Positions 1 to 60,835 of a stretch of DNA of 64,000 nucleotides are shown piece after piece. The stretch spans positions 15,002,001 to 15,066,000 of the forward strand of contig OX485804.1 in the NCBI GenBank assembly GCA_950295325.1, read 5' to 3'. Below the pieces are notes generated by a model that was given only the letters and a program-made list of their open reading frames with translations, was not told the DNA's origin and ran no database searches. How positions within the stretch are numbered: position 1 is the first letter of the stretch; every line of letters begins with the position of its first letter. Both the position numbers and the translations under genes were made by a program. This stretch comes from Polytrichum commune. Taxonomy: Eukaryota; Streptophyta; Polytrichopsida; Polytrichales; Polytrichaceae.

Positions 1-235
1 TTAGACGGACATTACATCTTACAAAAATTGTGACTCCAGCACATGCCAATGCTGAAATATGACTCAAATGAGTCATATGGGTGAAAATTAGTATGACTGG
101 GAGGAGTCATAATCATGAAATTGTTCACAACATGTAATGAAGATGGTTGAAAATAAAAATTGAAATTGAATGTCTATTACTAGAACTCAGTTCAGCATTC
201 CATTGTAATTGTTAGAACCTATTGCAGAGTTGACA

Positions 236-316
236 ACACATACACATTGTCAACACATACACCTACACATACACAACACATACACGTACACATACACATA
301 CACATTGTCAACACAT
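236..316. repeat. CA/CACATA-rich simple repeat
   Basis: An imperfect run of ACACAT, ACACA and CATACAC units. The phrase CATTGTCAACACAT occurs at both edges, suggesting local slippage or duplication. No coding potential is seen. Confidence 0.7.
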
Positions 317-970
317 AAAATTGAGTTTGAACCTTTGTGAATTCATCTTACGAAAGGAATATGTAACAAACACATACACGTGCTCTAGCTAGTATTAATT
401 GAGTTCCAATAATTCAAACTTTCATTATCATCACGGGCACCAACCAATCATGCATGTGAGCAGCTTAGTTAGCCCCCACTACATTGTTCCTCAATATGAC
501 ACCCGAAATATTTAGCCTATGCATTATGGTTTCAATTCCCTTTCAAATTTGGTAACTCTGGACTGTTGGGTAGTATGGAATTATTCATTCATTATGTGAT
601 GTCAAAAAAAAACATTGTTCATACACATGATCATAAATACACGATCATAGAAAACCAATAGAAGCCACATATGATGCACAACAACAAAGTTGTGGGAAGA
701 AGTTACAATATTTTTAGGACTGGGAGGAGTCATAATCACAAAAATGTGACTGGACTGTGTCATAATGACCTTAAAGTATGACTACAGTGAGTCATAATAT
801 TTTGAACTATGACTACAGGGAGTCATAATACTATGAACTATGACTGCAAACAGTCATGTCTTCAGCAAGTTGTATGCAATTTATGACTACAAGGACTCTT
901 AAAAGTTTCAAAATTCATAAGCAACCCTAGCTGTAGCGGGTCCGTTGTATTAGGGTTTGGTCATACATAC

Positions 971-1102
971 CCGGGGTCCTCAGGTCTCTTGAAATGAGAA
1001 GTCCCAATCGGTGACAGACCCAGTTCCCGCAGCTTCGGGTTGTTGGCCTCGATGTTTTTCTTCCGCATCCTCTCATACTCCGGGATTTCCTCCTCCGTGA
1101 TT
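971..1102 (-). CDS. Possible coding exon of a second, antisense transposon gene
   Basis: On the minus strand a 132-nt open segment is bounded by an acceptor-like GTAG (before 1102) and a donor GTATGT (after 971). It reads as a charged helix containing EEEIPEYERMRKKNIEAN followed by LRELGLSPIG. Segments of the type 'YExxRxxNIxxNxxxLxxLGL' are common in second proteins of plant CACTA elements, which is from family knowledge recalled without a search. The exon would belong to a gene running leftwards, with the rest outside the window. Upstream exons were not found. This could still be a chance open frame. Confidence 0.35.
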
Positions 1103-1619
1103 CTACAATACCCAAATGCACATTAGTGTTCATTGAGGACAATAAGGCTGTCCCCATTGCTGCCGTTCCAGCTACACCGTGAGCGGAGGAGGTGGAGAAC
1201 AACCAGCACCTCCACAACTGAGCGACACGGAAGTTGCGAATTCAAGTGAGCTCACCTTTCTCCTCTTCGTATTACTTTGTGTGTGTGGGGTATTAGTATG
1301 AGCCATCTAGAGGAATCCACTCCGAAACCAGATTTAGTGTCCGAATTAGGATTGATCATTACACAATTTACATGTCGTCTTTCAAAGTACAAGTTTTGAG
1401 ATTTTTGAGGTATTAATATTTAACCTAAAATCTTAGCCTTGGAGATGAGAGAGTGCACAACCTTTGAGAGTGAGAGAAAAGGGTAGTCAGAGGGAGAGCC
1501 CTCCCTCTCAATCTTGAAGAGAGAGAGACGCCGAAAAGAGAGCGATTTAGTGTCCGAATTAGGGGTACCCTCAACCCAAAAAGTTGAGAGGCACCGAAGT
1601 ATCCACACACCGATCAGAG

Positions 1620-2140
1620 CACAGGATGGAAGTAGCTGTGGCCGAACTTAGCTGTGGCCGAAACTAGAGACACTTCATGCAGTCTCACAGGGGCACCCAC
1701 ACACCGATACAGCACCGAGTAGCCACTGTCCGAATAGAGCACCGAACCCAGCACTGCACCGAATCTCCTTGTGAGCACTGCATAATCAAATTTGAACTAG
1801 ACCCAACACTTGTCTGATGCTCCTTGTGAGCACTGCACCAAATCCTTCAACTTAGACAGGGACCCAACACTTATCTGATGCTCCGAACTTGGCTGTGGGG
1901 CCGAATCCTTCAAGCAGCACCGAACCCAGCACTATTCTGATGCTCCGAACCATTCATTGTAGGCAATCCTTCAAGCACCGAGCCCAAAAAGTTAACCGAA
2001 TCCTTCAAGCACCGAACCAAAAACTTCTTCGAATCCTTCAAGCAGCACCGAACCCTACATGGCTCTGATGCTCCGAACCCTACACTTACCTGATGCTCCG
2101 AACCCAGCACTGCACCGGAACCCTTCAAGCAGCACTGCCG
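1620..2140. repeat. Degenerate interspersed short repeats (CCGAA-rich)
   Basis: Two phrases alternate many times in this half kilobase: one like GCACCGAACCCAGCACT and one like TGATGCTCCGAAC, often joined by AATCCTTCAAGCA. The spacing is irregular, roughly 25 to 60 bp. The open frames across this region are by-products of the repetition. A purine-rich GGGAGGGAGAG tract follows at 2205-2360. Confidence 0.7.
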
Positions 2141-2204
2141 AATTCGAATCTGGTAGAAGGTTGTGGCTTTAGGTGTTCGGCGATACAGGTTAAATGGCCG
2201 ATCC

Positions 2205-2360
2205 GGAAGGGAGAGAGCGCGGGGAGGGAGGGGAGGCGGGGGGGGGGGAGGGAGGGAGGGAGGGAGAGAGACAGAGTCAGGGATACCTTGGACAGATGTC
2301 CGAGGAAGGGAGAGAGCGCGGGGAGGAAGGGGAGGGAGGGGAGGGAGAGGGAGAGGGAGA
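2205..2360 (+). repeat. Purine-rich GGGA/GA tract
   Basis: Almost pure G and A with runs of up to nine G. The phrase GGAAGGGAGAGAGCGCGGGGA occurs twice in part (around 2205 and 2306), so the tract is itself partly duplicated. Open frames here give low-complexity Arg/Gly/Glu peptides and are not genes. Confidence 0.75.
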
Positions 2361-3499
2361 GTTGTTTTTTTCAAAGCTTTTTTCAAAGCTTGATCTTCCT
2401 CTTTTCAGAGGCCCTTTCCTTTCTATTCTTCATCAAAATAAAGCAAGGGTGGGTGGGTGGGATTTTCCTCAACACAAATCTATTTCCTTTCAAGTCATAG
2501 TGTCTATCATTATGCTTGTAGTACTAGGCTTTGTACAATATGGAATGGCTTGATTTTTCAGGAATTAACTAAAAACTCTGTCTGTGTGGTATGAGTAGTC
2601 AGAATGTAGAGATTTGGTGTGCTCATTACATGACTTGTATACATAAGCTTAGTCCATAACCTAAGTTCAAAACCTTAGTTCAGAACAAAGTCTAACTATG
2701 CAATGTATTGTGTTTGGAAGCCATTGTAACTAATGTTACCAATGTCACCAATATCATCATCAAGTACTAGGTTGAGTATATCATATGTAAACTTGTACAT
2801 ATTTATCAATACTGTCTCAACTACTTTGTAGTGGTTGTGTGCTAATCAAAATACTATTTCAAAGCAATAACACTACTTTCATGCTTATCATATAATAAGA
2901 TGAAAGAGTATTCAAACTTGAACAATGTACTATTGTTGGTGTAGAAAATGTGAAGAGCTAGCCTCACCTGCACCCGTGCCAACCCAAACAAACAAAATGT
3001 GTGTTAGAAAGGCGTGTGTCAGGTGTCTTCAGCTAAGCTCAGTTGCTATCCATGTCACACATTAACCTCACCTGTCAAGTCCATTGATGCTTTGCAAAGA
3101 CAATACTCATTACAAATCAATGAGTATACAAACCTGCTCTTTTGCCATGTTGTGTAACTTGATAGTGACAATCTCTAATTCTCCCAATGTCAGTTTTTTC
3201 ACCTTCCCTCCAACCTTGCTCTCACATTCACGTCCTTCACACATGTAAAAGAGTTTTCACATGGGAGAAAAGAGGCTTAAGTATTGGTGTGGTCAAGCAA
3301 AGAGGTTGTTTTAGGTCACGGAAACCCTAAAACGTGGAGTATGGTAACTATTTTTTACCATGGTAACTTAACCCATGGTTAGTTTCAACCATCTGACTAT
3401 GGTGTTGATTCCCTTAGGTGTCTCAGCCCTATTGGAATGTTCATATTAGATTGTCAGTAATATTACTTTTTAATTCAAAGGCAAATTCTAGAGCAAAGC

Positions 3500-3501
<2 letters not shown>

Positions 3502-3531
<30 letters not shown>
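3502..3531. repeat. (GA)n microsatellite
   Basis: About 15 uninterrupted GA units within the AT-rich interior of the CACTA element. The flanking stretch 2560-4120 has no gene I can support. Confidence 0.9.
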
Positions 3532-3535
<4 letters not shown>

Positions 3536-4127
3536 CATGAGTTATAAAAATGTAATTTCAGTAATTACAATACTCAATTTTTATATCCACTAAGCCTAAT
3601 TAACCCTAAATTTTAATTAATGGAATTAACTCCAATTAAACCCGGTAATTAAAATAATTGATTAATTAGTTCCATTAAGTATATTTTATACTTAAGTGCG
3701 TATGAATATTCTTGAAAGTAGCCAGAATTATCTAAAATATTATAAAATATACCAACCACATCAGCACACTAAATTTAAGTGACATTTAAGAATGACGAAG
3801 ACAATTTCAAATGGTAAGTCATAAAAATTATATCCTCAATGTTGATGAGGATTTTCTAATTTTTTGACTTCCAAGTTAATTACATTCTTGGTTGATGGTT
3901 TTACTTCCGGAATGAAATCCCATTTAATGCCTTAATTACTAGGTGGAAGTACACATATATATTGGATTTGAGACATTGAAGGTGAAGTGCACTCAATATG
4001 GGATTTGTAGTCAAGCGGCCTTCAAGAATGGAAGAGCAATGTTTTTTTCGATTTCGGGCGGGGCGGGCAGCTATTTTCGGGCGGGGCCAGAATTTAATGT
4101 AATGTGATTTAATGTGTGATTTAATGC

Positions 4128-4393
4128 AATCAGGCCGAATCGATCACGATATATTTAGGGGCCGCTTAAAATTAGGCAAACAAGGTGAAAAGTCAGCTCG
4201 ATTTCAAGAACAGGGTAAAAAGGGGTCCAATTGTGGATTTACTTAGGGCCCCGTTGAAATTACTTTTAGAAAGAAAAAAAGTATGGGCTTCACCACACTT
4301 ACGTATAACTGGGGTATATGAATCAGGCCGAATCGATTACGATATATTTAGGGGCCGCTTAAAATTAGGCAAACAGGGTGAAAAGTCAGCTCG
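4128..4393 (+). repeat. 73-bp direct repeat pair
   Basis: The block at 4128-4200 recurs at 4321-4393 with only two or three differences, an offset of 193 bp. It contains the phrase GGCCGAATCGAT and ends in AAAAGTCAGCTCG. The near identity means the duplication is recent compared with the degenerate repeats around it. A 92-codon open frame (4185-4463) crosses the second copy but resembles nothing I know. Confidence 0.85.
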
Positions 4394-4609
4394 GGTTGAA
4401 TCGGAATATTTATTAACCTCAAATTTAGAAAATCTAAATGAGATCATGAAAACTTATCCCTAAATTTAATGCTCAAAAGAAAAGAGGGTAAATCTGGTTA
4501 TGGGTGTAAGTTTCATAACCCAATATAGTGTGGGCTTCAACTTTTTGAATTTCCTAGAATTCCGTGTAAACTTAGGGACATCATAAATAATTATTCAATT
4601 ACCATCAAT

Positions 4610-4753
4610 ATATGACTCCCGTGTGTTATATGACTGCCATGTGCTATATGACTCCCGTGTGTTATATGACTTCCATGTGTTATATGACTCCTGTGTGTTA
4701 TATGACTGCCATGTCTTATATGACTCCCGTGTGTTATATGACTGCCTTGGGTT
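4610..4753 (+). repeat. 18-bp tandem repeat, 8 units
   Basis: Eight consecutive 18-bp units of the form ATATGACTCCCGTGTGTT, alternating with a variant ATATGACTGCCATGTGTT. The array lies just upstream of the first transposase exon. Each unit carries the ATGACT motif that recurs through the element. In one frame it would encode a YMTPVC/YMTAMC hexapeptide repeat, but the DNA periodicity is the likelier selected property: a cluster of element-encoded protein binding sites or a promoter enhancer. Confidence 0.85.
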
Positions 4754-4876
4754 ATTTGACCACCCTTTCGTATGTATCCAAATATTCAAGTGACTGCGCG
4801 CATGTGAGCACTCACTCCTTGTAAGGTATCCCCATATCACAAATTGACCCGCCCCGTATGCCGTGCACATCACAGG

Positions 4877-5775
4877 ATGGCAGGAGGGGAGGTGGAAAGC
4901 TTGAAGCATCTACAGTTATGGCAAGAAGAAGAGGTCCAAGCAGACGCAATGCGGCTATCCAAGTACCCATGCCCATGCATGGAGTGTGCAGGAGGGAAAG
5001 TCCTCGATCGAGCCACAATCCGAAAGCATCTTCGCAGCAAAAAAAGGGACCCTGTGTTTACAGCGTCTATCTTGGTGAGTCATTCCATGAAACGACTTTT
5101 GAATTAGCGTAAGCGGGTGGTCATGCTATGAGCGAATTTTCATCTTTGTGTACATGAATTTTGTAGGCCCGATGGAGACCCATTGTAAAAGCTGCTTGCA
5201 AGACATCCCTGAGAAAGTTTCTAGGAGGATACGAAACGCCTTCACAGTCAATGCCAAACACAACGTCTGCAAGAGTACGAGCCTTGCAGACATGGGGGTC
5301 AAACGTGTATGATGGACAGTGGTGTGACGGGCCCATCCCAAAACTTATAAAGTTTTCATACTGGAATAGAGAATGGGAAGTAAGGGTGTCCAACTTCCCA
5401 TTCATGGGTTGGGGTCTCTTTGCACTTCAACCTGCCAAAGAGGGAGAGGAACTGCTTCCATTCGTAGGACCACAATACACCTTGGGAGAATATAGAGCTT
5501 TGAAGAAGGCACAACCTCGAGTGAAGTCATATGCGATGCAAGTTGAGCCGGACTTGTACATCGATGAAGATGTAATGAAGGGGAATGTCGTTGGCTTCAT
5601 AAATAGTTCCATAGGACGCAAAGAAATAGGAAATGTGGTGTGGGAATTTCGCATGTTGCCAAAACCCTGGAACAAACATGAATGGGGGTATGTAATCACC
5701 TTAGCCACAAAGGACATTTTGGTCGGAGAAGAGTTGTATGCACACTACTCTTTGAACCCGCACACCGCATTGTAG
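4877..5775 (+). CDS. TAD-SET fusion protein encoded by the CACTA element
   Basis: Two exons, 4877-5074 (open from an alternative ATG at 4844) and 5167-5775, joined at GTGAGT...TTTGTAG in phase 0, give about 268 residues. Exon 1 encodes a cysteine motif CPCMEC and a following HL, as in the transposase-associated domain that normally heads TNP2 proteins. Exon 2 encodes a SET-type lysine methyltransferase fold: GWGLFALQPAKEGEELLPF (SET-N, GxG motif near residue 147), FINSS in place of the usual NHxC, and GEELYAHY near the C-terminus in place of ELxxDY. The asparagine and the final tyrosine are kept; the histidine of NHxC and the aspartate of DY are not. Methyltransferase activity is therefore uncertain; a histone-binding or structural role is possible. 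The frame is fully open, unlike the transposase. Confidence 0.7.
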
Positions 5776-6302
5776 GCTGGCACCCATTAGTCCATATTAG
5801 GAATGAGTAAAGTGTGTCATGTGTTCACTAACATGACTACACCAAGTCATGTTTTGATTTGACAAAATTTTGTATACATGTCCACACCACGGTATAGATG
5901 TGTACGTGGAACATGACCAATTTTTCACATCCATTATTTTTCCGTTATATGTTGCATGAAATTACTTTTACCTGACACACTCTTGTCTTCATAATCGATG
6001 AACACCCCCCCCACGCATGTTACATGTTCATGTTATATTCAGCGTTTCATGATTGCCCCTCGTTAGATACAGCGCGCATTTTATGACAGAACCATGTAAC
6101 ACAGAAGTCACAAATTTATGACTCGTCCATGTGATACAAGACTACTTGGGATTGCTCCTTGTCGTTTTCATACATTTGTATATAATATGTCCATGTTATA
6201 TACAATCCGTGGTCTATGTTTGTCATTGTTATGAGTCCTTATCATATGTTTCTGCCAAAGCGAAAATATATAACGTGCGCACAAATTTATCACTCTCTGC
6301 AG

Positions 6303-7857
6303 GACGAGTACAGCCCAATTGACTTGTTCTACCATGCACCGCGGCCTGGGCAAAGAAGCCAGACATACCCTAACACAAACGATGGACATGATGGAGAAGT
6401 TGAGGTCCTACGTATGGTGGCAGAGTGCTTCGGCAAGTACGATGGCCTCAATTATGACGGACACGAAACCGAAGCCACCATACATGAGGGACTCGGGGAT
6501 GCATTGGTTGAAGACGATGAAGGGGAGGATGGTTTCACAACGAGGGACAGTGATGGTAGCGAGGGGGAAAGGGAAGAAATGAATGACCCCATGGAAACAA
6601 GAGGGAGTACCATGAACAGTGAGGACCCCAGTGGGGTAGACCACCAAATTCTCTTAAACGAAGCTGGAACTCCACTGTATGAGGGAAGCCCCTCGAACCG
6701 TCTCACATCGACACTCTTGATACTATTGTGTTGCACCACCTTCGCCGTACCAAACAACTTTGTGGATGAGTTGTTGAAGTTGTTGAAGGAGACAATTTTA
6801 CCCAAGGACAACACACTACCGAAATCATTTAACGAGGCGAAAGGCTTATTGATGAAGTTGGGGTTGTCCTACAACTCAATACATGCGTGTAGAGATGGAT
6901 GTTGTTTGTTTCGGAAAGAGTTGGAGAATGCAATGGAGTGCCCAACATGCCACAAATCGCGCTTTGTAGAGAACTCCAGTACAATTCCAGTCAAAGTTTT
7001 GAGACATTTTCCTTTGATTCCTCGTTTGCGAAGGATGTACAGCTGCACACGGATCGCGGAGCTAATGAAGTGGCATGTAGGAGGGAAAAGTAAGGACAAG
7101 GTGATGAGGTCCGTGGTGGACTCGAAGGCTTGGGACCACGTAAATAATAGGTGGCCGTGGTTTGCGGAAGATGAACGGAACGTTAGGCTTGGCCTTGCAC
7201 TGGATGGCGTAAATCCATTTAGGAACCAAAGTCTCAGCCACTCTACTTGGCCCGTGGTCATGCTGAACTACAATCTCCCCCCTTGGTTAGTGACCAAAAG
7301 CTTTTTCATGATGTTTGCGCTAATCATACCAGGAAAAGAGAGTGTGAAGGACAGGAATGTGGATGTGTACATGGCACCTTTGATTGAGGAGCTCCAAGAG
7401 CTTTGGAAAAGGATCGACTGCTTGGACGGATCGCAAGGAAACTCCAAAGATAAAACATTTAAGCTACATGGCTTGCTTTTGTGGACGGTGAACGACTTCC
7501 CGGCGTACGGTTTGATTTCCGGGCAAGTAACAAAAGGACATAGGGCTTGCCCCGTGTGTGGCCCCAACGTGGCAACACGGCGTTCCAAAGCGTTGAAAAA
7601 GAATGTTTACCTTGGATATAGACGACAACTGCCAATGACCCACCAATGGAGACGACAGAGGTCCAATTTTGATGGGCAGCCGGAGATGAGACCACTGCCA
7701 AGAAGAATGAGTGGTCGAGAGCAATTGCGATATGCGAACGAGCGAGAAGAGTGGACGAAAAAACACTACAGAAACCAAACTGGGCAGACGACAGACCCCG
7801 TACACAATCATGGAGTGAAGAGGAGGACATGTCTATATGACCTTCCATACTGGAAAA
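6303..7857 (+). CDS. TNP2 transposase, first large exon
   Basis: Open from 6216, but an acceptor CTCTGCAG ends at 6302 and a 5' exon can join there in phase 0 from 5074. The protein shows an acidic linker, then TNP2 landmarks: MECPTCHKSRF (zinc-binding), RLRRMY, LGLALDGVNPF (carrying a likely catalytic aspartate), YNLPPWL, KLHGLLLWTVNDFPAYG, CPVCG, YLGYRRQLP and DLPYWK. It cuts and moves the element in the nucleus by recognising the subterminal motifs. The exon ends at TGGAAAA before GTACGT; the next exon's frame is off by one at this join, so one nucleotide has probably been gained or lost, or the true splice site differs. Confidence 0.85.
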
Positions 7858-8033
7858 GTACGTGTATATTATTAGCCGAATTAAGTGACTGGACGTAGTC
7901 ACATGATTGCATATAGTAATATTGTTTATTAGTATTATGTGAGTGGACGTAGTCATGTACAGTCACATGATTGCACGCAGTGATATTGTAATTCGCTCCG
8001 GCAAATTTCTCACTGGCTGGAGTCACTGTGTAG

Positions 8034-8960
8034 GATTTTCTAATTCGACACACACTGGATGTTATGCACTGTGAGAAAAACATCGCTGAGAATGTGATGA
8101 AAACCATATTTGGAGAGAAGGATACAATTGGAGTTCGTCTAGACATGAAGGAGGCGGGTATACGCCCGCATCTTTGGCCCGTAGCAGGAACAAAACCCGG
8201 TAGCGTGATTCTACCTCGGTCCTCTTACGTTATGACGAAAGAAGAGCGTGAAGTCTTTGTGGAGCAAGTGCGTGCACTGCGAACCCCCACTCACTATGTG
8301 GGACAGTTGAAGAAGCGCGTAAACGTGGATGGGACAATGAAAGGCCTGAAATTCCATGACTACCATGTCCTCATGCAGCAAGTGTTGGCACTATGTGTGC
8401 GCTGCACAATGGAAAAGGAAGTGCGGACATCAATAATAATGTTGAGCCGTGTATTCAGGAGGGTGTGTGCTAAGTCCATTGATCCCGCAACAATACATGA
8501 GATGAGGTGTGAAGCGGCCATAGCACTATGCATGTTGGAAAAAGAATTCCCGCCATCATTTTTTGACATCATGAGCCATTTGGTCATGCATCTCGTGGAG
8601 GAAGTGGAAATTTGTGGACCCGTACATACACGTTGGTATACCCTATAGAGAGGTACCTGAAGACTCTCAAAGGGTATGTCCGAAACAGTACTCGACCAGA
8701 GGGTTGCATGGCTGAAGACTACGCCATAGTAGAGGCATTGGGATACTGTACGGAGTATATACAAGAATATACAGTCACCACTCGAAGAGTGTGGGATGAC
8801 AAAGAAGACCCATCAATGTATGATGAGATCCTCGAAGGTGGCGGGCGGGTGTGTCATCTCCCATCCGACCTTCGACAATGGATACATGAATTCGTGGTGA
8901 ACAATGCGGCACCACTGGAAGAGTGGAGGAGGCGAGTTCACATTTTAGTGGAAGGACCTT
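8034..8960 (+). pseudogene. TNP2 C-terminal part and DUF4218, frameshifted
   Basis: After an acceptor GTGTAG the frame reads LIRHTLDVMHCEKN, the landmark that follows DLPYWK in TNP2 proteins, then a linker and a DUF4218 region containing HDYHVLMQQ, EKEFPPSFFD and HLVMHLVEEVEICGPVHTRW. At 8637 the frame breaks: the expected continuation YPIERYLKTLKGYVRN is found one frame over, because two nucleotides stand where three are needed. The second part runs through RPEGCMAEDYAIVEALGYCTEY to a stop at 8960. A one-nucleotide deletion is the simplest reading. Confidence 0.85.
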
Positions 8961-9197
8961 AAATGCACCACCTCTTTTAGAACAACAGTCCAGTCCATAC
9001 GAACTACAACAAAACTCATCTTACATGACCAAAATTCATGACTGCACTCAGTCATATTTTGGGATATATGACTGAGTACAATCACAAAATGTAGTCGTAA
9101 AATATGCATTTCGTTGTAGTTATCGCGACACAGTACGACTACTGCTGTATGCATAATATGACTGCCCTTAGTGATTTCAGCATGTCACGGGTAATGA

Positions 9198-10103
9198 TGT
9201 GTTGGGCTGTATCCAAAATACAGGAAACATGAGGATGACATGTTACGGCGGGAATGTGAGCGGCACGAATACAGGCGCAAGAAGCGGAAGGCGCGGGTAA
9301 TGTACCAAGGGGAGTTGCGTGACGAGGATTTCCACATTTGGTTTCCAAAAGCAGTGGTGCGTGCCATAGAAGAAGGGACTGAGGAGGTACAAGAACACGT
9401 TAGGGCCTTGATGTTACCTCCATCGGATGCAGCGAAGTCGTATCGATCCATGTATGCGTTTGGAAACGACATCCGTGTCCGAAGCGCACAGGCGCAATTG
9501 ACAACGATGGACTCTGGGGTGGCCGCAACATTTCGACAATTATGTCGCTCGGGCCTGAAGGACACAAATCCAAAGGCAGCGGAGTTGGAGTATGTGGATT
9601 GGGTTGAGGAAATACTCTCTGTGGACTATGGATTCTTCGAGGTGGTGGTCCTCTATTGCAATTGGGTCGTTGCAAACATAAAGGGAGATGGGGCGACGAT
9701 GAAGCGCGACGACTATGGTTTCACCATTTTAAACTTTGACAGATTGATTCCTTACTCAGCACAATCATTTGCCTTTCCTCTCCATATCGAATAAGTTTTT
9801 TTTACACCTGACGTCGCGAAGAGTGGATGGGAAGTTGTTTTGCGTAAGGAACCGATAGGGGTTCGGGTATTCTCCAAACAACAAAGAACGGATGAAGTAC
9901 AATACATAGCACTAGGTAGGACTTCTGATTTTCCCGGATTACAAGTGACGGTTTTACATGACGATATCGTACCGAAGACACCCATATTGGGCAATGCAGT
10001 GGAAGTGGGGCCAGGAGTGGTTGCTAAGGCATTAGAATGTCTAGAGGGACCGGATGACGCATCGGTAGATGACTCCGAGCTTGGCGACTCGGACGGTGAT
10101 TGA
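9198..10103 (+). pseudogene. DUF4216 part of the transposase, interrupted by TAA
   Basis: The frame reads YPKYRKHEDDMLRRE, then FGNDIRV, TMDSGVAATF, YVDWVEEILSVDYG, VVVLYCNWV, DYGFTILNFDRL, which are DUF4216 landmarks of CACTA transposases. A TAA at 9792-9794 interrupts it. The same frame continues at once with VFFTPDVAKSGWEVVLRKEP, the expected family continuation, to an acidic tail ending at 10103. A CAA to TAA change is likely, since glutamine is usual before VFF. The segment before 9198 has stops in this frame, so an exon boundary or more damage lies there. Confidence 0.85.
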
Positions 10104-10750
10104 CTTCCCGTCCGAGCAAGAAGTTGTATAATTGAAACTTAGGTGGGTATATATTTAAGTTCAATTATATACATGTTCAATTAGTCTTTTGGCAATAGTA
10201 AGAATCAAATTTCCTCCCCAATTTCCCCCCTATACTCCCTAAAACATCAATCAATTAATTATTCAATAAATAAACATAGGCCATTCCCAATTTTCATTGC
10301 CGTTCATACTATAACACACAAAGTACTTAATTTTGACCAAAATCTTTCATTATTAAATAAATAATCCAAACCATAATACTAGATAATGAGTCATGGGGCA
10401 AAAACACAAGAGGCCCGTCTAGGGCAGCCTGAATTATCAAGGGCTGCCCAAAAAAAGGAAAAAAATGGTCTTAGTCAGAATGTGACTGAAGAATATGACT
10501 CGCAGAAAAATATGACTGCCACATATGACTGGGCGTCCACCATACACGTTCCCCGTCGTTCCCTATAAAGGCAGTCGTCGTTCCCATACGCCGTATACAG
10601 TACATTTGCCGAATACGACAGTAAAATATGACTGCGAGTCATATTTTTGAATTTCGTACACCCCAAAGGTCGAGGCTTGGAAAAATGTGACTGCATGTAG
10701 TCACCAGTCATCCCCAGTCATATTTCCCTAGTCACAAAATACCCAATCTG

Positions 10751-10758
10751 TTGTAGTG
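10751..10758 (-). other. Right terminus of the CACTA element
   Basis: TTGTAGTG, read on the minus strand as CACTACAA. Immediately inward (10620-10735) lie eight or more ATGACT/GTGACT/AGTCAT motifs in both orientations, as expected for a subterminal transposase-binding zone. The outer flank starts GAGGTGTGTTGGGA, which is continuous with another repeat family. Confidence 0.75.
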
Positions 10759-10846
10759 GAGGTGTGTTGGGACGGCCTTTGGACACTTTCTTTTGGGCTC
10801 TCACAATTTCATGGTCACGGCTCCTGGCTTGTGTGTGAAGTGACCC
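10759..10846 (-). mobile_element. Fragment of the GGGCCACTTCACACAC TIR element
   Basis: The fragment matches the terminal part of the elements at 29807-30659 and 60195-60706 (phrases GGCCTTTGGACACTTTCTTT and GTGTGTGAAGTGACCCT). In those copies the sequence before GAGGTGTGTT is a CACTACATGATTTTG-like phrase, absent here because the CACTA element ends at this point. The other half of this copy is not in the window. Confidence 0.75.
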
Positions 10847-10865
10847 TGAAGCTTTGCATGCTGGT

Positions 10866-21100: not shown

Positions 21101-24100
21101 ACAAACATTCATATCCTTGCTGAGGTGAGCATACAAAATGGAAAAGTGGAAGGACCTGGTGGAACACTGGTAATATGAAACATGTTGCTACTATGTAACT
21201 ATGATGATGTCTTCACCTGGAGAAACAAACGCCACCATCTCCACCAGGCATTAGTAACAAGCTCCTACCCATTGAGAAATGACTTAATTTAAGCAGAGAC
21301 ATCTATGAGAACATGATTCCCACCCATTCCATCATGCCGAGACCTGACCTGGCTCGAACTTGGCTTTGAGTATGACATGTCCTCACCTGACACCATCACT
21401 TCGTTGCTCTCTTTCCGATCCTGCATTATTAGATCCACGCTGCAACAAACAAGAAACAGGTATTTAAAGAACAATCTCAACTGACCTCTGAAAACTAAAG
21501 GTTATAATGTCCGCACACTCTTTTCAAAATAATCAAGTAATAATTCTAATTCTAATGTGAAATGAATCATTTGACAAATTGCACAAAAACTCAACTAACA
21601 AGGACTGCTAAGTCATCCTGGTTTCTGCCGAAACTGAACAGTTGTCATCTATAATCATAGGTTGCAAATTCTAAAGTAGCAATTTAAGAAACCTCTGAAA
21701 CACTCTGAAACACTTGAAACAACAGCAACCATCCCCGTAGACCAAAAGATAGTGCAAAACATGCCAAAATAAATCTACAACATAATTTACAGACCTTTAA
21801 ATCCTTCAATTTCTTATGATCCTTCACTTTCTTCTTCTCCTTGGTTTTATCACGGGTCTGCTTCGAAGACTCGATGTCTTTGGATCCTGGGCTTTTTCTA
21901 TCCTTTGCAAGCTCTGCTAAAAATGCTTCCTGAGCAGCATCTGACTTCTGCATGGCATCCTTGTCTGCTTCTTCTTCCACCCGACTCTGTAGAATTCAGG
22001 ATTCAAAATCAAGAGGACAGCAAGATAGTTGATTGGAATGACAACACTTCAATATCAGAGGAGACACAATTAGATAGAAAGAACAAGATTGTACTGTAGA
22101 CAACTATTACCGCGTAGGGCAACCTTTCAAGAGTATCATTTTAGATTCTACCATTTAGTATCCCAGCCTCTCCATGGATCCAATTTGAAAGTCCATTTAA
22201 TCCCTAGATGGAGTTGGGCAGAAATTGTACTCAATATACGAAGATCAAACATCATAATCAAGTGCTTTTGTACCCTCTCATGTTCCTCTCACCTAAATCA
22301 CCAATGTGTAGATTTTATGGCTTAAGACCTGTACACAAGTCTTGTATAAAGTCCTCTAAAAGGTTGAAAATAGCTGCAGTAGTAATTTTGAAATTAGATG
22401 CACAAAATGTCTATTCAAGTTGGAGAGCAATACGGCTTTCACTTTGGTCAAATACATAGATCATAGAAGAGGACCATCCCCTCTACTTAGCGGTTACCAA
22501 GCTGTAAAAACGTGTATACAGCTGTACCTTAAGAAAACTTTTCACAAGGGGAAGAACAACAGCTCTGTAGTCCAGCACTGCTGCTTGTCCAAGTTTCATC
22601 TCCAATTTTTGCAAGTTGTCCGTTGTCTTCATTATCTTTGCATCCACATGATTTATCTGCAAAGATGCCAACCAGTAAAGCACCTTTAGAAACAAAATAG
22701 GGGATTCACCAAAGAATATCTCCAGATGTCCTTGAGATGGACAAATTTCAGAAAACCCTACTAAAGGAAAATGATAGCTCTGTAGAAATAGAGCTAAATC
22801 CAGAGTCTAAGACTCACAATCTCACCATACTCAAATGAATGTGGCCAAATTTCCTTCTTCAAGATCCATAAACAAAAAACACTCGTAGAATATTACATAC
22901 ACTTCTAAGCAGTCGAGAATGTGGTAGCATGCCTAAGACCCAGGACTTGATCTCCTCAATTCTAAGAAATACAATTCAATCAACTGACCTCATTAGAAAG
23001 TTGTTCCCTTTGTCGCAAGATCACACTGTCCACACGGGAGTCAGCACGATGGGGGGACTCCTGCATTCTCCAAGCCTCGTCCTCATCTTCATCAGAGTCA
23101 CTGACTCGGACACCCAAGTTTCCATCATAAGGATGCCTCCGCACCATACCAGTCTGTGCATCTCTTAAAACATTGGTTATTGCATCTAGCTCCAGCTTGC
23201 GATCAGGAGAGAGGCCATTTGTCCGTGCATCAGCGAGCTCCTGCTGCCTCTGTTTCAAGACAGTCTCATAGCTCTTCCGAGTACCATCACCCTTATATTC
23301 TCTTCTCTTATTTTCTTCTGCACATAACCCTTCAGCTAAGCCAAGAGCCTCCTCATAACTTACAAGTTCAAACTTCTTGTCACATAATCCATGCAATTGC
23401 TTGAACTCTTTTTCAAGTGCACGAAATATATCTCGTCCCTTTTGTCCCTGCTCTTCTCTGAACTGTTTCCAGCCAGAAGGTTGGTACTCGTATTCCATGC
23501 TACCATAAATCCATGAAAGCTGCAGGTCCATGTGGTCACAAACTGCTCCTCCTTCCTTTTTCTTCATAAGAGGCAAAGGAGGTTTGTGAGACGCCTCACC
23601 TTTCTCATCCACAGGCTCCTTTGCTTCTACATCCTCAAATTTCTTACTGGGTGGGAATATCTCTTCAGAAAATTCCTTCAGAACCCGCTCGTCTATCAAG
23701 AGCTGGGTAAAGTCCTCATTTAATACAAGCCTATCTGGAATAATCTCTTCCTCACCAATCTCTCTGGGATTTGGGGTAATTATGGAATCAGAAATGCGGC
23801 TCAGGCCACAAGCTTGAGCTAGTTCTATGAGATATTTATGAATATGTTGAAGGGGCAGTGCTTCCAGGAATCGAATGTAGAGAGGAGATTGATTGAACTC
23901 ATAGTGTACTGTTGGATCTGGAACCAGCGACTGCACTTCCTCTGTAGCATATTGTATAATTTTCATTACATGATCGCGTGCCAGGCACTTATTTCTAATG
24001 AGAACCCTGAAGAGAACATATATCTTCTCCAATAATTTCTTCCTTTCTTCATTCTCCACTAGCGGTAGATCCTGAGAAGGCATCTCCTTACCTGCCTGAG

Positions 24101-25895
24101 CTACATTCTTAACTTTTTGGCAATCTCCATTGCAAGTATGAAGGTGCTTCTGATCTACCTCGTCATGCACTACACCACCACCTGCTTCTATGTCCTCAAA
24201 AGCTTCAAGGGTTTTGAAGCGTTGCAGAAATACATCATCCGTACCCTTCACTGTACCTACATTTGTCTTCTCCAGCACTTTCAGATTCTCAAGCTCTGCC
24301 GTAGCAGTCTCGGATGTCTGCGGTTCCATATCTGGCAGCGGAATATGGGCAAATTCTATGAGCAATTTAACTGCAGCTGCTCCATCGATGGGCCTACAAT
24401 CCTTATCAAGTAGATGTTCCACCCATTCCTGATCAATCTCTCGCGGTATCACTTGCTGCAATTTCTGAGGAAGGCTACCTATATGCTCCATTGACATTGA
24501 ATGGAGAATCAAATCCTGGTACTCAATAAACCTCTCGCCGCATTTACAACAAGCCCAGAACCTCCAGGTTTTATTCTCTTGTGCAAACTCCAGAGCCTCA
24601 GAGAGAGCATCTGATGCAGCATGGCTCTTCACAAGACCTCCTGCCTCTTTCCAAGATGCCAGATGATCTTTCAGCTCCACAATGGAGACCTCAAGCAGGG
24701 ATTCCCTCTTCTCTGGTGAAAGAACACGCCACAATTGTCTTACACGGTCTATTTTTTCCTCTGTTGAGAGAGTCTTTGCAACTCTTCTTGAGTTAGGCCC
24801 GGTAGATTTCCTTCTATCTAGACGTTTCTGGAGTGACTTCTCAGGTTCCTCCGTAGATTCTCCACCTGTGTTACCAGAGAGGGTCTGACTTTGTTGTAGG
24901 AGCCGTGCAGCAGCCACCCGCACCTCTATCTCTTTCCGTCTCTCCTCGGGAGTTTTCACAACTTTTTTCACCTCATGAGGTCGCTTTGGTTGTGAGATCC
25001 TTTGCTCCATAGGGTCCTGGTCAGCAAACTTCCTCATCTGTATAAACCGAAGCTTTTCCTCTCCGGCCCCGCTTCCTAGGGTCTTCATCCAAGTGGAAAT
25101 TGAAGTTATATTGGCCTTCTGAACTAAACCTCTCAGTTCCTGCTTCACATGGGCAATACGGTCTTCAGAAGTAGGCAGTTCCTGCTGCTGCTGCTCGTTG
25201 TGTAGGCTTTCCTTAGCTGGATCAACTGGGTCCTCAATACGAAGAGCCCTCTCACATTCCCCAACCACCTCCTCATAGCCCTTACTATCTTTGGCCACTT
25301 CATACAACAGTTGAGCATAGAAGTGCGCATATTCAACTGAGTTAGGTGAAAGAGATGCCGCCTTTTTAGCACTTTCAAGAGCTGAGCTGAAGTACCTTTG
25401 TTTGGTATTTGCATCCTCAATAACAGATGCCAACCGCATGAAAATGTGACCCTGCACACGGTATGCCAGGCCTGAATTCTCATTCCTGTTGCATGCGTCC
25501 CTTATCAGACGCAAAGCTTTTTTACTGTTCCCTCTTCGCAAGGCCACAAGCGCTCGTTCACATTCTCCTCTTACACCAGCGGAATTTAGAGCCTCGTCCT
25601 TCCCATTACTTGAGAAGGATACACCACCTACACCATTGTTTGTTGGAGCCTTCCCATTCGAATTAGGGATTCCTGATGCTTTTCCTCCATGCCCTTTACC
25701 TGAAATACACGATTCTCCCCCTGCACCATCAAAAGAAGATGACATCTCTAGTCCGGTTCCCTGTTGAGGCTCAGAACCCGCCAAAACCCCTCCTGTATGT
25801 CCCTCATTGCTCCCAGGCGATGTATACCAGTCATGTGTAGTGGCATTGACGGTGGTAGTAGTGCGCGTAGCGGATGCTCTTTTCTTTTGCCCCAT
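15159..25895 (-). CDS. DUF627/DUF629 ubiquitin carboxyl-terminal hydrolase-like protein (USP54-like)
   Basis: Thirteen coding exons, all with GT-AG borders and consistent phases: 25895-22989, 22656-22528, 21986-21795, 21439-21387, 21071-20023, 18830-18723, 18457-18222, 17908-17690, 17390-17115, 16704-16557, 16442-16309, 15765-15679, 15257-15159. They total 5,637 nt, or 1,878 residues. Order: a basic Thr-rich N-terminus, a TPR-like DUF627 (about 110-250), DUF629 with a C2H2 finger (CCKCGERF...HSMSMEH), a charged coiled-coil with four repeats of about 26 residues (about 1130-1225), and a C-terminal USP fold. USP marks are QYNCFLNVVIQ (Cys about 1551), NCQGCG, YYGQHYHCFAY (His about 1824) and WVLFDDS (Asp about 1841). 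The family is often labelled inactive in plants, yet the triad positions look filled here. Arabidopsis relatives, recalled from memory, are near 1,600 residues. Role: probably deubiquitination or ubiquitin binding; the substrate is unknown. Confidence 0.93.
18831..20022 (-). other. Long intron of the USP-like gene
   Basis: This 1.2-kb interval between exons 5 and 6 has no conserved open frame and no transposon termini that I can see. It is moderately AT-rich. Confidence 0.7.
20695..20956 (-). repeat. Coding tandem repeat, about 78 bp x 3-4, in the USP-like gene
   Basis: Within exon 5 the phrase KLAEQLELQ...AEEE.KAKHLAEQE.K is repeated with small changes (LELQRCAEEE, IELQHHADEE, LELQCHAEEE, LALQ). 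It forms a continuous charged heptad-like coil. DNA copies are similar enough to give long false open frames on the other strand. Confidence 0.85.
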
Positions 25896-26387
25896 ACGCA
25901 GAGGTCTTACTTACATACTTGACCTTCGTTGCTGCATCATATCATATCAATAGGATGAGAAATAATTATACATTCGCCATCTCACAAAACTGCCTCCTGG
26001 ACATACATAAATGCCATGTATATCAGACCGGCATCATCATCTCTGAGTTTCCTTCAACTTTTAGGGCCTCACTCATCCATAGCTTTAAAATGACCTACCC
26101 TCAGCTGCTAGTTCTGTACACCATCCGAAATCTTTTTCTTTCGATGGGAACAGATCGTAACAATGCCTGCAGGCTGTTGATAAAATTATTGTGCCGATGA
26201 TGTAGATAAGAGGTGGAATCCGTTATCCAAGTCCAGAATTCTCTGATAGAATCTGATAGACGAAGCAAAATATACAATCCCCGATCCCTCCATTGACAGG
26301 ATCCGCAGCTACTAAAACAAATCCTAGCTGGAAACGGAAACGCCTCTGCAAGATAAACATTCCACGCTTCAGAGGAAGGAAGCTCAA

Positions 26388-29806: not shown

Positions 29807-30659
29807 AGGGCCACTTCACACACAAGCCAAGAGCCGTGACCATGAAATTGTGAGAGCCCAAAAGAAAGTGTCCAAAGGCCATCCCAACACACCTCCAAAA
29901 TCATGTAGTGTGGTCATGGATCCTCAAGTGTAGTGTGAAGCCATATGTGACTGGGCCCTCGACCAAATGCCATTTCAATGAATTTCTATTCATGCATATC
30001 CTCACACATGATAAACTAGAATAAATCAATGGTTGTGAGCATTCGGAGGGCCATGGTCTCCCGGTTTTGTGTTAAATCTACATCCAAAAGGTGCTTTTTG
30101 AAAATAGTCCAAGTGACCATGAAACATGATCCATTTGATGCCATGTAGGAATTCACGTGGACTTTACATCCATCTTGCATTCACACACTTTGTTGATCCC
30201 TTGAGTATAGTGTGAAGGGAACTCTCGGGGGGTGTAGTCATTGGTTGGAGTAGCAATATACGTGTGAACAAATGATGGGGTATTTTAAAAACATGGGGGC
30301 GAAAAATTATAATTGGACTTAAGAGTAATATAGGGTATCAAAAATGGCACTGGACATCTTTAAAGTACTATAGGGTATGGAATAATAGGTAATTTGGAAT
30401 TATAAGGAATGCAAGTCATTTTTATATTAACCCAAAGTAGAAATTTACATAATGATAGCATGTGAAAAAAAAAAGAGAATTGAAAGTAATACCCCCCCCT
30501 ATAAAATAGTGGTTGTTCGCACCTATATCCTTAACTTTTTAACACATTGCCCCCCCCCCCCCCCGAGAGGGAACTTGGACCGGCTCCGCCTTTTCCACCA
30601 AGGAGAGTGCTTGAAGTGTAATGGTCACGAGCTCTCAGTCTTGTGTGTGAAGTGGCCCT
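29807..30659. mobile_element. TIR element, AGGGCCACTTCACACACAAG family, 853 bp
   Basis: The two ends AGGGCCACTTCACACACAAG and CTTGTGTGTGAAGTGGCCCT are inverted copies. The subterminal GTGACC and GGGCTCTC-like phrases are shared with 60195-60706 and 10759-10846. No transposase frame is visible, so the copy is non-autonomous. A run of 15 C lies at 30550-30564. Termini would suit a hAT-like element, but no clear 8-bp duplication is seen. Confidence 0.75.
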
Positions 30660-39380: not shown

Positions 39381-42300
39381 CAGTCTCTTTTTGTAATATT
39401 ATGTTGGTTATTCTCTTTGTCAGCAATAGACATGTCCCTTGATGCATCAAATAGCATGGGATTATCAGTTGGAAATTTGTTCAGGGTGCTGTAGAAATCT
39501 TGGGAGCATGGGATGTAAAAACCAATAGCTGGGCATATGCCATACACCCATTCCATGTAACAAAATTTTGCTCAATAAGGTGTCCTTAGAGTGAGGATCT
39601 CTTTACCCTAAACACATTTACATAAGAGAGACTGTTGGATAGTAATATTCGCTTTAAATATCAGCCATTTGGACAGGCCTTTGGGCTGTCATTCCTATAT
39701 AAGCTGTGTCTGCAAAATGGGCTGGGTCCTTCTATGTATCTGAATCAACCTTTTGAATGGCAGTTGGGACACAAATGTTCAAGCATCCTGCCTGGTATGG
39801 GACTCATGGGTGTGCTCCAACCCTGCAATGTCTAGCCAAAGGCATTAAATATAAGGTTGTCGGAAAGGGAGCATTCACAAGATCATCCCTAATTGGACAT
39901 ACATAAAGTGGTGACCTATGTAGGTAGACCTTTGTCATTTATCAACCAGCAACTTCACAAACATAGATCACATTAAAAACCACACTATACATATGATTTC
40001 GTATGGCTCGCACTAATCATACATATTACCAAATTTTATCTTGTATTTCATGAATTTGGCCTGCGCATGTCATCAGAAGAATTACTTGAACTGCTAGTAT
40101 ATCTTGATGTTATGATTGATAAAGGTCTTGAGGAGCTCATTTTTATCATAACTAATCGGAAGTGGCAATTGTGCGAAGCAGTGAAAACTTTTTGGCCGGA
40201 GTTTTGCAAAAAACTTACCTCAAAGCTCAAGAACGGAATATTTTGTCAAAACAGAGGTTTTTCTGGGCCTTCTTTTTTTTCCCTTCAAAAAATAAGATGA
40301 AATTGCCCTTAAATTACTGTTCTTAGTAACTTCAGGATGATTGTTACATTATATCCAAGCGATTTCCTATAAAAGGAATATTCCTGTGATTGTGATCATC
40401 ACTCTGGCTCCTACAACAAATGAAAAAAAAAATGCATTGGTGTGAAGGGGTGTGGCATTCAACAATAGCAACACTTGCTGCTCCTGCACATTAGGAGTGG
40501 CACCGGTTTCAAATGCAAAAGGGGACCCTAACTTGTGGCTTCCACTTTCTTCAATTGGTCGATTTGCAATTTTAGACATGTTGTAGTCCAACTTTTGTGA
40601 ATTTGGAAATCCAAAATGGAATGCTAGACCCCAAAGAAATCAACCGAGTTGCAAATACATTTCTTGCTGAAGAATACTATGTCTTATGCAAGTCTTGATA
40701 TTCTAAGTTTATCACAACCAAAAGGAAGTGACAATTATGTGAAGGTGAGGGTGGCTTAAACCCAAGGCCTTAACTTGCATCCCATGGGAGAATGACTTTT
40801 CTTGGGACTTGATTTTTAGTTCGTCCTACCACCTATGGTCCACCCAATCCTAATCGGGATACTTGGATGAACTGCATGTTTTCAACCAGCCATGTGGGAG
40901 CCCCTAGGGGGGAGATATGTATTAACTGGCTTGTTCATGCTAGTTTAAGGTGTTCATCTATGTAAGGGCGCAATGAACTTTGAAAGCCCTCTAATTCTTG
41001 TAACGTCCATTTTGGGATTACATATAGATGTAGACCAACTCGAAAATGAAGAAACACCATAATCCACACCGGTGGCAACATCGGAGTCATCTTTCTCTTT
41101 GTGAAAGGTTGCTTAGCATACAATAATCACAACCCTTGTTGTACATTGGAATCGAGCCCGGGTTTAAATGCACAAGGGGACCCTAGCTCATGTCTTCAAT
41201 CTGTTACAATCTAAATTCAACAATTTTAAGTCCAAAATCAAACCCTAAGGTAGACATACCTAATTCAGTTACTTACCTTGATCGGACACCTATATTTGAG
41301 TGGTATATGGTTTGGTGTGGCTCTAAGATTTTTACCAAAAAGGACATGTGCTTGAAAGAGATTGGACAGCATGCTTAAAATATGATAACCATTCTAGATT
41401 GCACAATCAATTTATTTCTAAATGACATATACGACCGTTTAATGAGCACGAGAATCTCCACTTTTATTTTAAGCGAAGAAGATGTTCATGAGAGAGCTTC
41501 AAGAATTACGGCCTCAATTTAGATTCGATAACCATCTCGTACTTAATGAGTGCTTCGTAATACTCTCATATGAGAATTGGGCTAGTTGTACAAACTAACC
41601 ATTTAACGCCCACCTGCCCTGGACCCCAAACTATGGGAAAGATTTTACAAGCAATTCACTTTATTGGTGGTGCCCACCGAATTTCCCTTGTGTGCGGTGG
41701 GGGCCTGCCGCTTGGTGCATTGGTGGAGTGCGAGATGGCATCATCTCGGTCGCCATCACGTCTGCATGTCGATGGAGCCCGTGCGAAAAGACACTTGCCT
41801 GCTTCCCTCTGTGCGACCCTCACAATTCTCGACGCATTTGAGGCTGGCCTCATCCACAGTAGCCAGGTCTGGTGAACAAATAAGTTACGTAATGCAAGTG
41901 AGGGACGAGTTTGCAGTAAGTTAGGAGGCAAAGCCATGTTTGTGTAAATTGCTCCCGGGCCGAGTGAGGAGGAGCACAGAGAACACAAAATTTGAGGCAA
42001 AGAGTTGGATACAAGTAAGTATTTGAACGATGTGGACAAATTTAAGATGCAATAATATAGTGTCGTGTTTCTGTAACTCCGAGGTGAAATGTATAAATAT
42101 GTAGTTGACATGGTGGTGCCTATCCAATGAGGAATTTCAACACAGCTGGGAGAGGTTCAGTGACTGAGTAATATGCATGGCTTCCTCTCCTCTTATTCGT
42201 TGCGGGTTTTTGCAATTTGACCAGTCTATTTCTGGTTAGGTTTGCTTTGCTGTCGCGCGGTGCGAATCTGTTGTGTTTGCATGGTGGACACGCTTCGAAA

Positions 42301-59767: not shown

Positions 59768-60835
59768 CACATGGACTACACATTGATGTTGAAAATATCC
59801 AACACCTCAACAACATGCGCACCCCAATGTTTTTGGATGAATTGCACGCTCCTCCCACCACCCTTTTAAAATAGGAATTGGAAGAAATTATGGTGGCGAC
59901 AATGAAGATGTACTTCAATTGATCAATGCTTGTATCTTATTTGAAGTTCGCGAGAAATCGTTATGTCAAATTTGTTAGTTAAGTACATTTGGCAGATCTC
60001 TACTTTACATAAGGAATTAAAAAAGCATGTTGTTAATCTAACATCTTGCATAATACATATTGATGATGAAAATGTACACCACCTTAACATCATACTCTCC
60101 TAATGATTTTGGGCAATTTACATGCTCATTCACTGCCCTTTCAAAGTAGAAATTGGAGGAATATGTGGTGGCGGCAATGAAGATGTATGTACTTAGGGCC
60201 ACTTCACACACAAGACTCAGACCCCGTGACCATTGCACTTCAAACACTGTCATTGACGGAAAAGGCAGAGCCGGTCCAAGTTCACTTCACACTACGCTCA
60301 AGGGACCAACGGAGCGAGTGAATGCAAGATGGATGTAAAGTCTACACGGGTTCCTACATGACACCAACTGGAACACACACATTTCATGACCACTCGAATT
60401 CTTTTCAGAAACCATCTCCTAGAGGCAAGCCTACCACAAAACTGAGAGACCATGGCACTTGAAAATCTCACAACCGTTGATTTACTCTATTTTATCATGT
60501 GCAAAGGTCCACCCCACATGAATAGAAACTCATTGAAATGGCTATTGGTTTCAGGCCCCATCACGCATGACTTCACACTACCCTCAAGAGCCCGTGACCA
60601 CACTACATGATTTGGGAAAGATCTTGGGACGGCCTTTGGACCACTTTCTTATGGGCTCTCACAATTTTCACGGTCCCAACTCATGGCTCGTGTGTGAAGT
60701 GGCCCTTGCTTGAACTTTATCACTGCCTAAGTTATGTCTTGGTCGAGGTCAGGGAAAAAACCGTTCTGTCAGGTGTGTAAGTTAGTAAGGATATTCGGCA
60801 GATCTCCACTTCACTTGAAGTCTATGTGGAAGTTA
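59768..60835 (+). repeat. Direct duplication, second copy split by a TIR element
   Basis: The block 59768-60015 (ATTGATGTTGAAAATAT, CACCTCAACA, CCCTTTTAAAATAGGAATTGG, TGGCGACAATGAAGATGTA, GGCAGATCTCTACTT) is matched by 60048-60194 and again by 60707-60835. The two parts of the second copy are separated by the element at 60195-60706. Confidence 0.7.
60195..60706. mobile_element. TIR element, AGGGCCACTTCACACACAAG family, 512 bp
   Basis: The ends AGGGCCACTTCACACACAAG and CTCGTGTGTGAAGTGGCCCT are inverted copies. It is a shorter relative of 29807-30659. It sits within the second copy of a local duplication whose first copy lacks it, so that copy shows the empty site. Confidence 0.8.

Follow-up and report, generated by a model that had tools for sequence, protein, structure and literature searches.

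Organization of the locus

As shown in Table 1, the left part of the window (the whole stretch of 64,000 nucleotides analysed, from Polytrichum commune) belongs to a CACTA-type element that carries a TAD exon, a SET exon and a TNP2 exon in this order. The TAD donor of the window is ATCTTG/GTGAGT at 5074/5075, and the SET and TNP2 acceptors are TTTTGTAG/GCCCGA at 5166/5167 and CTCTGCAG/GACGAG at 6302/6303, respectively.

Table 1. Features of the CACTA-type element in the window
Feature	Position	Strand	Evidence or remark
CACTA-type element	1-10758 within the window; left end outside	+	right terminus 10758
Part of a candidate second element gene	927-1241	-	open frame; no Pfam match above cut-off
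Eight ATGACT motifs, 18-base spacing	4612-4743	+	array ends 134 bases ahead of the TAD start codon
TAD (transposase-associated domain) exon, putative common head	4877-5074	+	66 aa
TAD/SET intron, 92 bases, GTGAGT...TTTTGTAG	5075-5166	+	donor GT and acceptor AG in 30 of 30 close copies
SET exon, 202 codons and stop, predicted alternative terminal exon	5167-5775	+	Pfam PF00856, SET fold, selection
Rest of the TAD-TNP2 intron, 3' end CTCTGCAG	5776-6302	+	counterparts present in 8 diverged loci
TNP2 (Transposase_21) exon	6303 to about 7857 (end approximate)	+	Pfam PF02992
DUF4218 part of the transposase	8034-8962	+	PF13960 1-59 in one frame, 56-105 in another; frameshift near 8640
C-terminal part, weak DUF4216	9226-10103 (start approximate)	+	PF13952 under cut-off
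Right terminal repeat, CACTACAACAGATT reading inward from the end	10745-10758	-	terminal sequence

The donor at 5074 can be joined in phase 0 to SET and to TNP2, and both joins are open. TAD joined to SET gives 268 aa, with the terminal stop as the sole stop, and TAD joined to TNP2 (4877-5074 + 6303-7858) is without a stop. An earlier, sequence-only reading had described this donor, the two acceptors at 5167 and 6303, and the phase-0 frames of an intact TAD-SET and an open TAD-TNP2, and the sequence confirmed all of them. Among the AG sites from 5101 on with phase-0 readings of at least 60 aa, the AG at 5166 gave the longest reading into SET (202 aa). The stop codon preceding the SET frame is the TAG of the SET acceptor itself. 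TNP2 coding starts in phase 0 after CAG, with DEYSP in the window and seven protein relatives and with EVNND and GPDPEL in eight loci. A QDEYSP start was found in 7 of 120 listed relatives, where the preceding 0 to 15 residues were unlike those of the window; the residues ahead of the Q of QDEYSP were alike in the two relatives P0054 and P0055.

The right end of the element is TTGTAGTG/GAGGTGTG, also given as CACTACAACAG at 10758, and its right flank is GAG. The element was inserted into a repeat (10759-10848) with further copies at 29807-29897, which continues unbroken across the element junction, and at 60624-60706, which is more diverged and shows similarity up to near the junction. The last 159 bases of the element had at least 40 matches in the genome, 39 of them to the last base of the query; as the query itself ended at 10758, these matches do not establish the terminus on their own. 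The left terminus was not found in the window or the preceding 2 kb, and the element extends past the left edge of the window, with ATGACT motifs and minus-strand frames going on upstream (L051). Within 1-10758, ATGACT/AGTCAT occurred at 6.06 per kb outside the coding parts, as these are delimited here, and at 0.72 per kb inside them. There were 43 ATGACT sites in 1-10758 (40 outside the delimited coding parts) against 28 in the other 53.2 kb, and eight lay in the right-hand 370 bases of the element. ATGACT is proposed as a putative protein-binding motif of the element.

The minus-strand frames of L051, at 525-1412 and 1527-1997, encode 295 and 156 aa, respectively, and have no Pfam match above cut-off. 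These frames and the one at 927-1241 of the window have ATGACT clusters between them, and together the frames are perhaps a candidate second element gene for a TNPA-like binding protein. The C-terminal transposase part has a probable in-frame stop near 9792, and the transposase of the window copy looks broken. An imperfect palindrome with 56-base arms lies in a transposase intron (9002-9121). It starts with AACTACAACAAAA, which resembles the end of the element itself, and looks to be a very small non-autonomous insertion of CACTA type. Elsewhere in the window, a minus-strand frame of 976 aa with DUF627 and DUF629 at 22980-25910 is likely a host gene, and a single isolated tblastn match from 172 collected proteins was seen at about 41500-42000.

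Identity of the encoded domains

The transposase is of the TNP2 type (Pfam profile PF02992, E 4.9e-70). The head exon scored 21.3 bits with the TAD profile PF13963, under its cut-off of 27.7, and 23.1 bits with the U-box profile PF04564 against its own cut-off of 21.4 (TAD-exon residues 32-60, profile positions 16-44 of 73). We read this exon as TAD because the relative P0092 has PF13963 and PF02992 in a single ORF and matches the window by tblastn at 4913-5059 and 6258-7856. The U-box match was taken as spurious, since relatives have this exon at the head of TNP2. TAD had no relative with a solved structure.

The SET exon scored 36.4 bits with PF00856 against a cut-off of 22.4. Its fold was supported by a predicted structure of the trimmed 155 aa, made with 45 sequences (pLDDT 81); the model of all 202 aa was of low quality (pLDDT 57). 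Matches in a viral structure library were SET proteins from many viruses with no special link to one of them, and searches of viral contigs, GTDB genome contigs and plasmids confirmed no relative of SET. Across 21 aligned SET sequences, chosen among the relatives, the GWGL residues W, G and L were invariant, as were the IN-motif Asn and the last Tyr (21 of 21 in each case). Positions 145-147 were I, N and S in 21 of 21 and position 148 was S in 20 of 21, giving NSS in place of NHS. The exon ends eight residues past the conserved Tyr 194, without post-SET cysteines. The NHS motif and post-SET cysteines are usual, if not universal, features of SET methyltransferases, and their replacement and absence here make methyltransferase activity uncertain.

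Recurrence of the TAD-SET-TNP2 order in the host genome

The genome searched comprised 408 Mb in 64 contigs, seven of which are of 42 to 78 Mb. For SET, at least 150 matches were obtained (the best 150 of 203 candidates, some being pieces of one copy), and the second SET query, P0015, was represented by the best 150 of 206 candidates. For TNP2, 83 of 731 candidates were scored and gave 84 matches, and for TAD and the right end the best 150 of 405 and the best 40 of 82 candidates were used, respectively; all these totals are lower bounds, and some of the matches counted are fragments of a single copy. The sequence-only reading had named uniqueness of the SET exon to this locus as one of the points that would count against it, and we found instead these at least 150 SET matches, diverged loci and TNP2 neighbours. 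Capture of SET at a single locus was rejected on the genome-wide matches.

SET was also seen to recur beside TNP2, a check that the sequence-only reading had called for. A SET match lay at most 6 kb upstream on the same strand for 62 of the 84 TNP2 matches, where random placement expects 0.4. In 20 hand-picked diverged loci with SET identities of 44-77%, TAD was upstream of SET in all 20 and TNP2 was downstream in 19, with only a weak partial match in L041. The donor was exact in 18 of these 20 loci and the SET acceptor AG was present in 19; among the deviants, L048 was shifted by two bases, L041 was without the donor and L042 was without the acceptor. The TAD-SET intron measured 88-117 bases in the diverged loci with both ends clean.

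The 30 best SET copies, including the window, all kept the donor GT and the SET acceptor AG. A TNP2 exon could be aligned downstream in 29 of them (the exception being L028), and the TNP2 acceptor AG was present in 28. TAD identity to the window was at least 92% in 29 copies and 57% in L022. Open frames were found for TAD, SET and the 5' part of TNP2 in 24, 18 and 27 of the 30 copies, respectively, and for all three in 15; for the open-frame, first-Met and right-end pairing counts, 42 of the 150 SET matches were taken in. With 96 of the 150 SET matches entered, a TAD match was found 91-259 bases upstream in 67 of 73 near-full-length SET matches and none within 500 bases in the other six. Two further near-full-length matches, C1:58198800 and C4:36678320, were added by eye and had no listed TAD match, which gives 67 of 75. 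As for the right end, 32 of the 40 matches had a SET match (of the 42 entered) at most 20 kb upstream, 24 of them at 4.9-5.1 kb, and the eight without SET upstream are as expected of deleted copies. Because the same three-exon order recurs genome-wide, the TAD-SET-TNP2 arrangement exceeds chance, and the window copy is a member of an old SET-bearing plant CACTA (EnSpm) lineage.

Some individual loci deviated. In L047, the SET frame downstream of TAD is cut short by a stop after 70 residues, and the stretch examined gave no TNP2 match. Three TNP2 matches of the window clade (C6:13495731, C3:41462072 and C4:46030595) had no listed SET match upstream, possibly through loss or truncation.

Altogether, 22 of the 84 TNP2 matches had no SET match upstream, which indicates that the wider transposase lineage can do without SET. 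Nineteen TNP2 matches of 56-60% identity (e.g. C6:28175074-28176276; L052) had no detected SET, with TAD upstream in 19 of 19, and a check by eye found none of the P0015 SET matches (best 150 of 206) within 6 kb of them; they form a related SET-less lineage of this genome. In the one SET-less copy that was read, the shared SIL residues are again succeeded by GT, and TNP2 is readable in phase 0 from CAG; its donor, GTATTT, is weak. These features of the SET-less copies suggest that the TAD donor's service to TNP2 is independent of SET, so that this donor probably served TNP2 with or without it.

Selection and probable shared descent

The SET exon shows purifying selection. In the window subfamily, where 26 of the 30 copies were used (L022, L028, L029 and L030 omitted) and broken-frame copies were kept in, dN/dS was 0.116, 0.417 and 0.420 for TAD, SET and the 5' part of TNP2, respectively. 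When SET was read in shifted frames, the values were 0.706 and 1.113, against 0.417 in frame. SET divergence in this subfamily was 0.058 at synonymous and 0.025 at other sites, and the two introns gave 0.052 and 0.076. Pairwise SET values were obtained for 14 chosen pairs, of which the six between main lineages were saturated or nearly so; in pairs against the window the synonymous sites of SET were saturated. The dN/dS was 0.145 for L032-L035, 0.197 for L037-L035 and 0.199 for L037-L042 (near saturation), and 0.226, 0.240, 0.270 and 0.371 for L043-L046, L042-L043, L033-L036 and L033-L035, respectively.

These values bear on whether SET is a passive passenger, that is, a captured host fragment hitch-hiking in the intron. 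Plant transposons commonly capture pieces of host genes, the SET frame is broken in 12 of the 30 close copies, and dN/dS reached 0.54-0.59 in the near pairs L032-L037 and L032-L039, all of which a passenger would explain. Yet SET sits at the same place and in the same phase in subfamilies down to 44% identity, dN/dS falls to 0.145-0.240 in more diverged pairs, and the shifted frames evolve less constrained than the true one. A passenger is already largely refuted and hardly credible.

In a comparison of 19 hand-chosen loci out of 50, using 230 aa of TNP2, the TAD, SET and TNP2 distances correlated with r of 0.96-0.98 (each P 0.001). Descent of SET along with the element would account for this correlation better than its repeated capture. 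SET has long belonged to the element, in three or more diverged subfamilies, and was not freshly acquired at a single locus. The earlier claim of a CACTA element with a SET exon in its TAD-TNP2 intron is partly supported: SET lies in this intron, shares the TAD donor in phase, recurs beside TNP2 across the genome and is under selection.

Two probable products from one head exon

The TAD exon probably heads two products, TAD-SET and TAD-TNP2, both splices being predicted from the genomic sequence. One phase-0 donor would serve two phase-0 acceptors. Use of the near acceptor would give TAD-SET, a protein whose stop codon lies within the SET exon, and use of the far acceptor would skip SET and give the TAD-TNP2 transposase. 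SET coding similarity begins with the first codons past the acceptor in three lineages (ARWRPIV, AQRRPFV and DKHRPQV), and RP-x-V stands at the start of the exon in 14 of 19 translated loci. The first Met of the SET exon is residue 29 in the window, and there is none before residue 42 in L033, L035 and L036. Copies with such a late Met need an upstream start, which points to TAD as the head, its conserved phase-0 donor lying 88-117 bases upstream.

Alternatively, the TAD-TNP2 intron could harbour SET as a small nested gene that has a promoter and start codon of its own and is not joined to TAD. An ATG at exon residue 12 in P0003-P0005 (as predicted starts), L029, L030 and L048 and an earliest Met between residues 7 and 15 in other subfamilies would suit such a gene. 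The late first Met of the window, L033, L035 and L036 would not, as coding similarity runs from residue 1; a nested gene would not need a conserved donor and acceptor flanking a short intron either, and the 88-117 bases leave little space for a promoter. We consider a nested gene quite improbable. A further candidate, SET as a cassette exon within TAD-TNP2, was set aside, since no scanned donor pattern recurred past the SET stop in the window and eight loci; the scan gave one GTGAGT in L032 and one GTACGT in the window.

A search of 5.8 billion predicted proteins, mostly gene calls on DNA contigs, gave none that spans both TAD and SET; the best query coverage was 74%. Two metagenome relatives with a visible upstream intron, P0046 and P0048, have length changes that, as read, break the phase-0 join, and both are otherwise degenerate. 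When SET and TNP2 metagenome proteins were paired by the lengths of their contigs, three coincidences were found for any source (0.56 expected, P 0.017) and one within the same source (0.2 expected, P 0.19).

Proposed function of TAD-SET

We tentatively propose that in a two-product gene TAD would carry SET to the DNA of the element, perhaps through the ATGACT repeats, and that SET would methylate a histone or another lysine and so tune the element's own expression. Non-histone targets of the putative enzyme may also be considered. Plants silence transposons via chromatin marks. Few plant elements are known to counter silencing, the VANDAL families of MuDR being one case (cited in the available text of PMC12730594). 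Because selection on the element maintains the SET exon, we lean towards counter-silencing as the effect of a TAD-SET enzyme, with self-limiting repression nearly as likely.

TAD-SET might also work without methylation, either as a competitor of the transposase at TAD sites that lowers transposition or through a SET fold that serves only to bind partners. This reading is a rival of the proposed function and not of the two-product gene. The NSS motif and the lack of post-SET cysteines are in keeping with it, and truncated transposase products are known to act as repressors in other DNA transposons. For competition, however, a bare TAD would be enough, yet the GWGL residues, the IN Asn and the final Tyr are kept in every aligned sequence and the SET exon evolves under constraint, and we regard a non-methylating TAD-SET as unlikely.

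Still more tentatively than the methylation step itself, we suggest that a plant CACTA lineage may long have encoded a self-directed lysine methyltransferase with the targeting head of its transposase, in which the choice of acceptor would switch between jumping (TAD-TNP2) and chromatin control (TAD-SET). A transposon-kept SET in a multi-copy family, with SET-less relatives in the same genome that serve as natural controls, allows a direct test of self-directed histone methylation.

Comparison with known systems

In En/Spm (tnpA/tnpD), it is the region of intron 1 that supplies the large transposase ORF (available text of PMC2613891). The predicted gene resembles En/Spm of maize and Tgmt* of soybean, CACTA elements that produce two proteins through alternative splicing. 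The second product of En/Spm, as described there, binds subterminal repeats, whereas here it would be TAD joined to SET.

According to the available text of PMC12730594, SET genes were taken up by several different transposon lineages; HarbingerS and SET-bearing MuDR transposons of Phytophthora have a SET histone methyltransferase gene aboard (Kojima and Jurka 2014, cited in PMC12730594). Unlike our element, these belong to other superfamilies with oomycete hosts, and the available parts of the source mention no head exon shared with the transposase. The transposase here is of the TNP2 type and not Harbinger-type, which sets the element apart from HarbingerS. Among the titles and abstract openings listed in searches of the open PMC library, none named a CACTA element with a SET exon; the library covers neither Repbase Reports nor most of the subscription literature. 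Given the several SET-acquiring lineages in the available text of PMC12730594, a SET-bearing CACTA may have been described earlier.

Proto-Helentron-Pi of Phytophthora infestans carries SET as an accessory ORF, about 153 aa long (available text of PMC4067079). In contrast to the present exon, that is a free intronless ORF, compared there with Clr4, in a rolling-circle element. Fungal EnSpm and other transposons that bear TET/JBP also have a chromatin or DNA modification enzyme aboard (available text of PMC12730594); they differ in their fungal hosts and in their enzyme, a dioxygenase whose substrate is DNA. SETMAR (Metnase) of primates combines SET with transposase-derived DNA binding and targets transposon ends (available text of PMC6326780). 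SETMAR, as described there, is a host gene that arose by domestication and has a transposase of the mariner type (Hsmar1), whereas here a mobile element keeps the SET exon in many copies.
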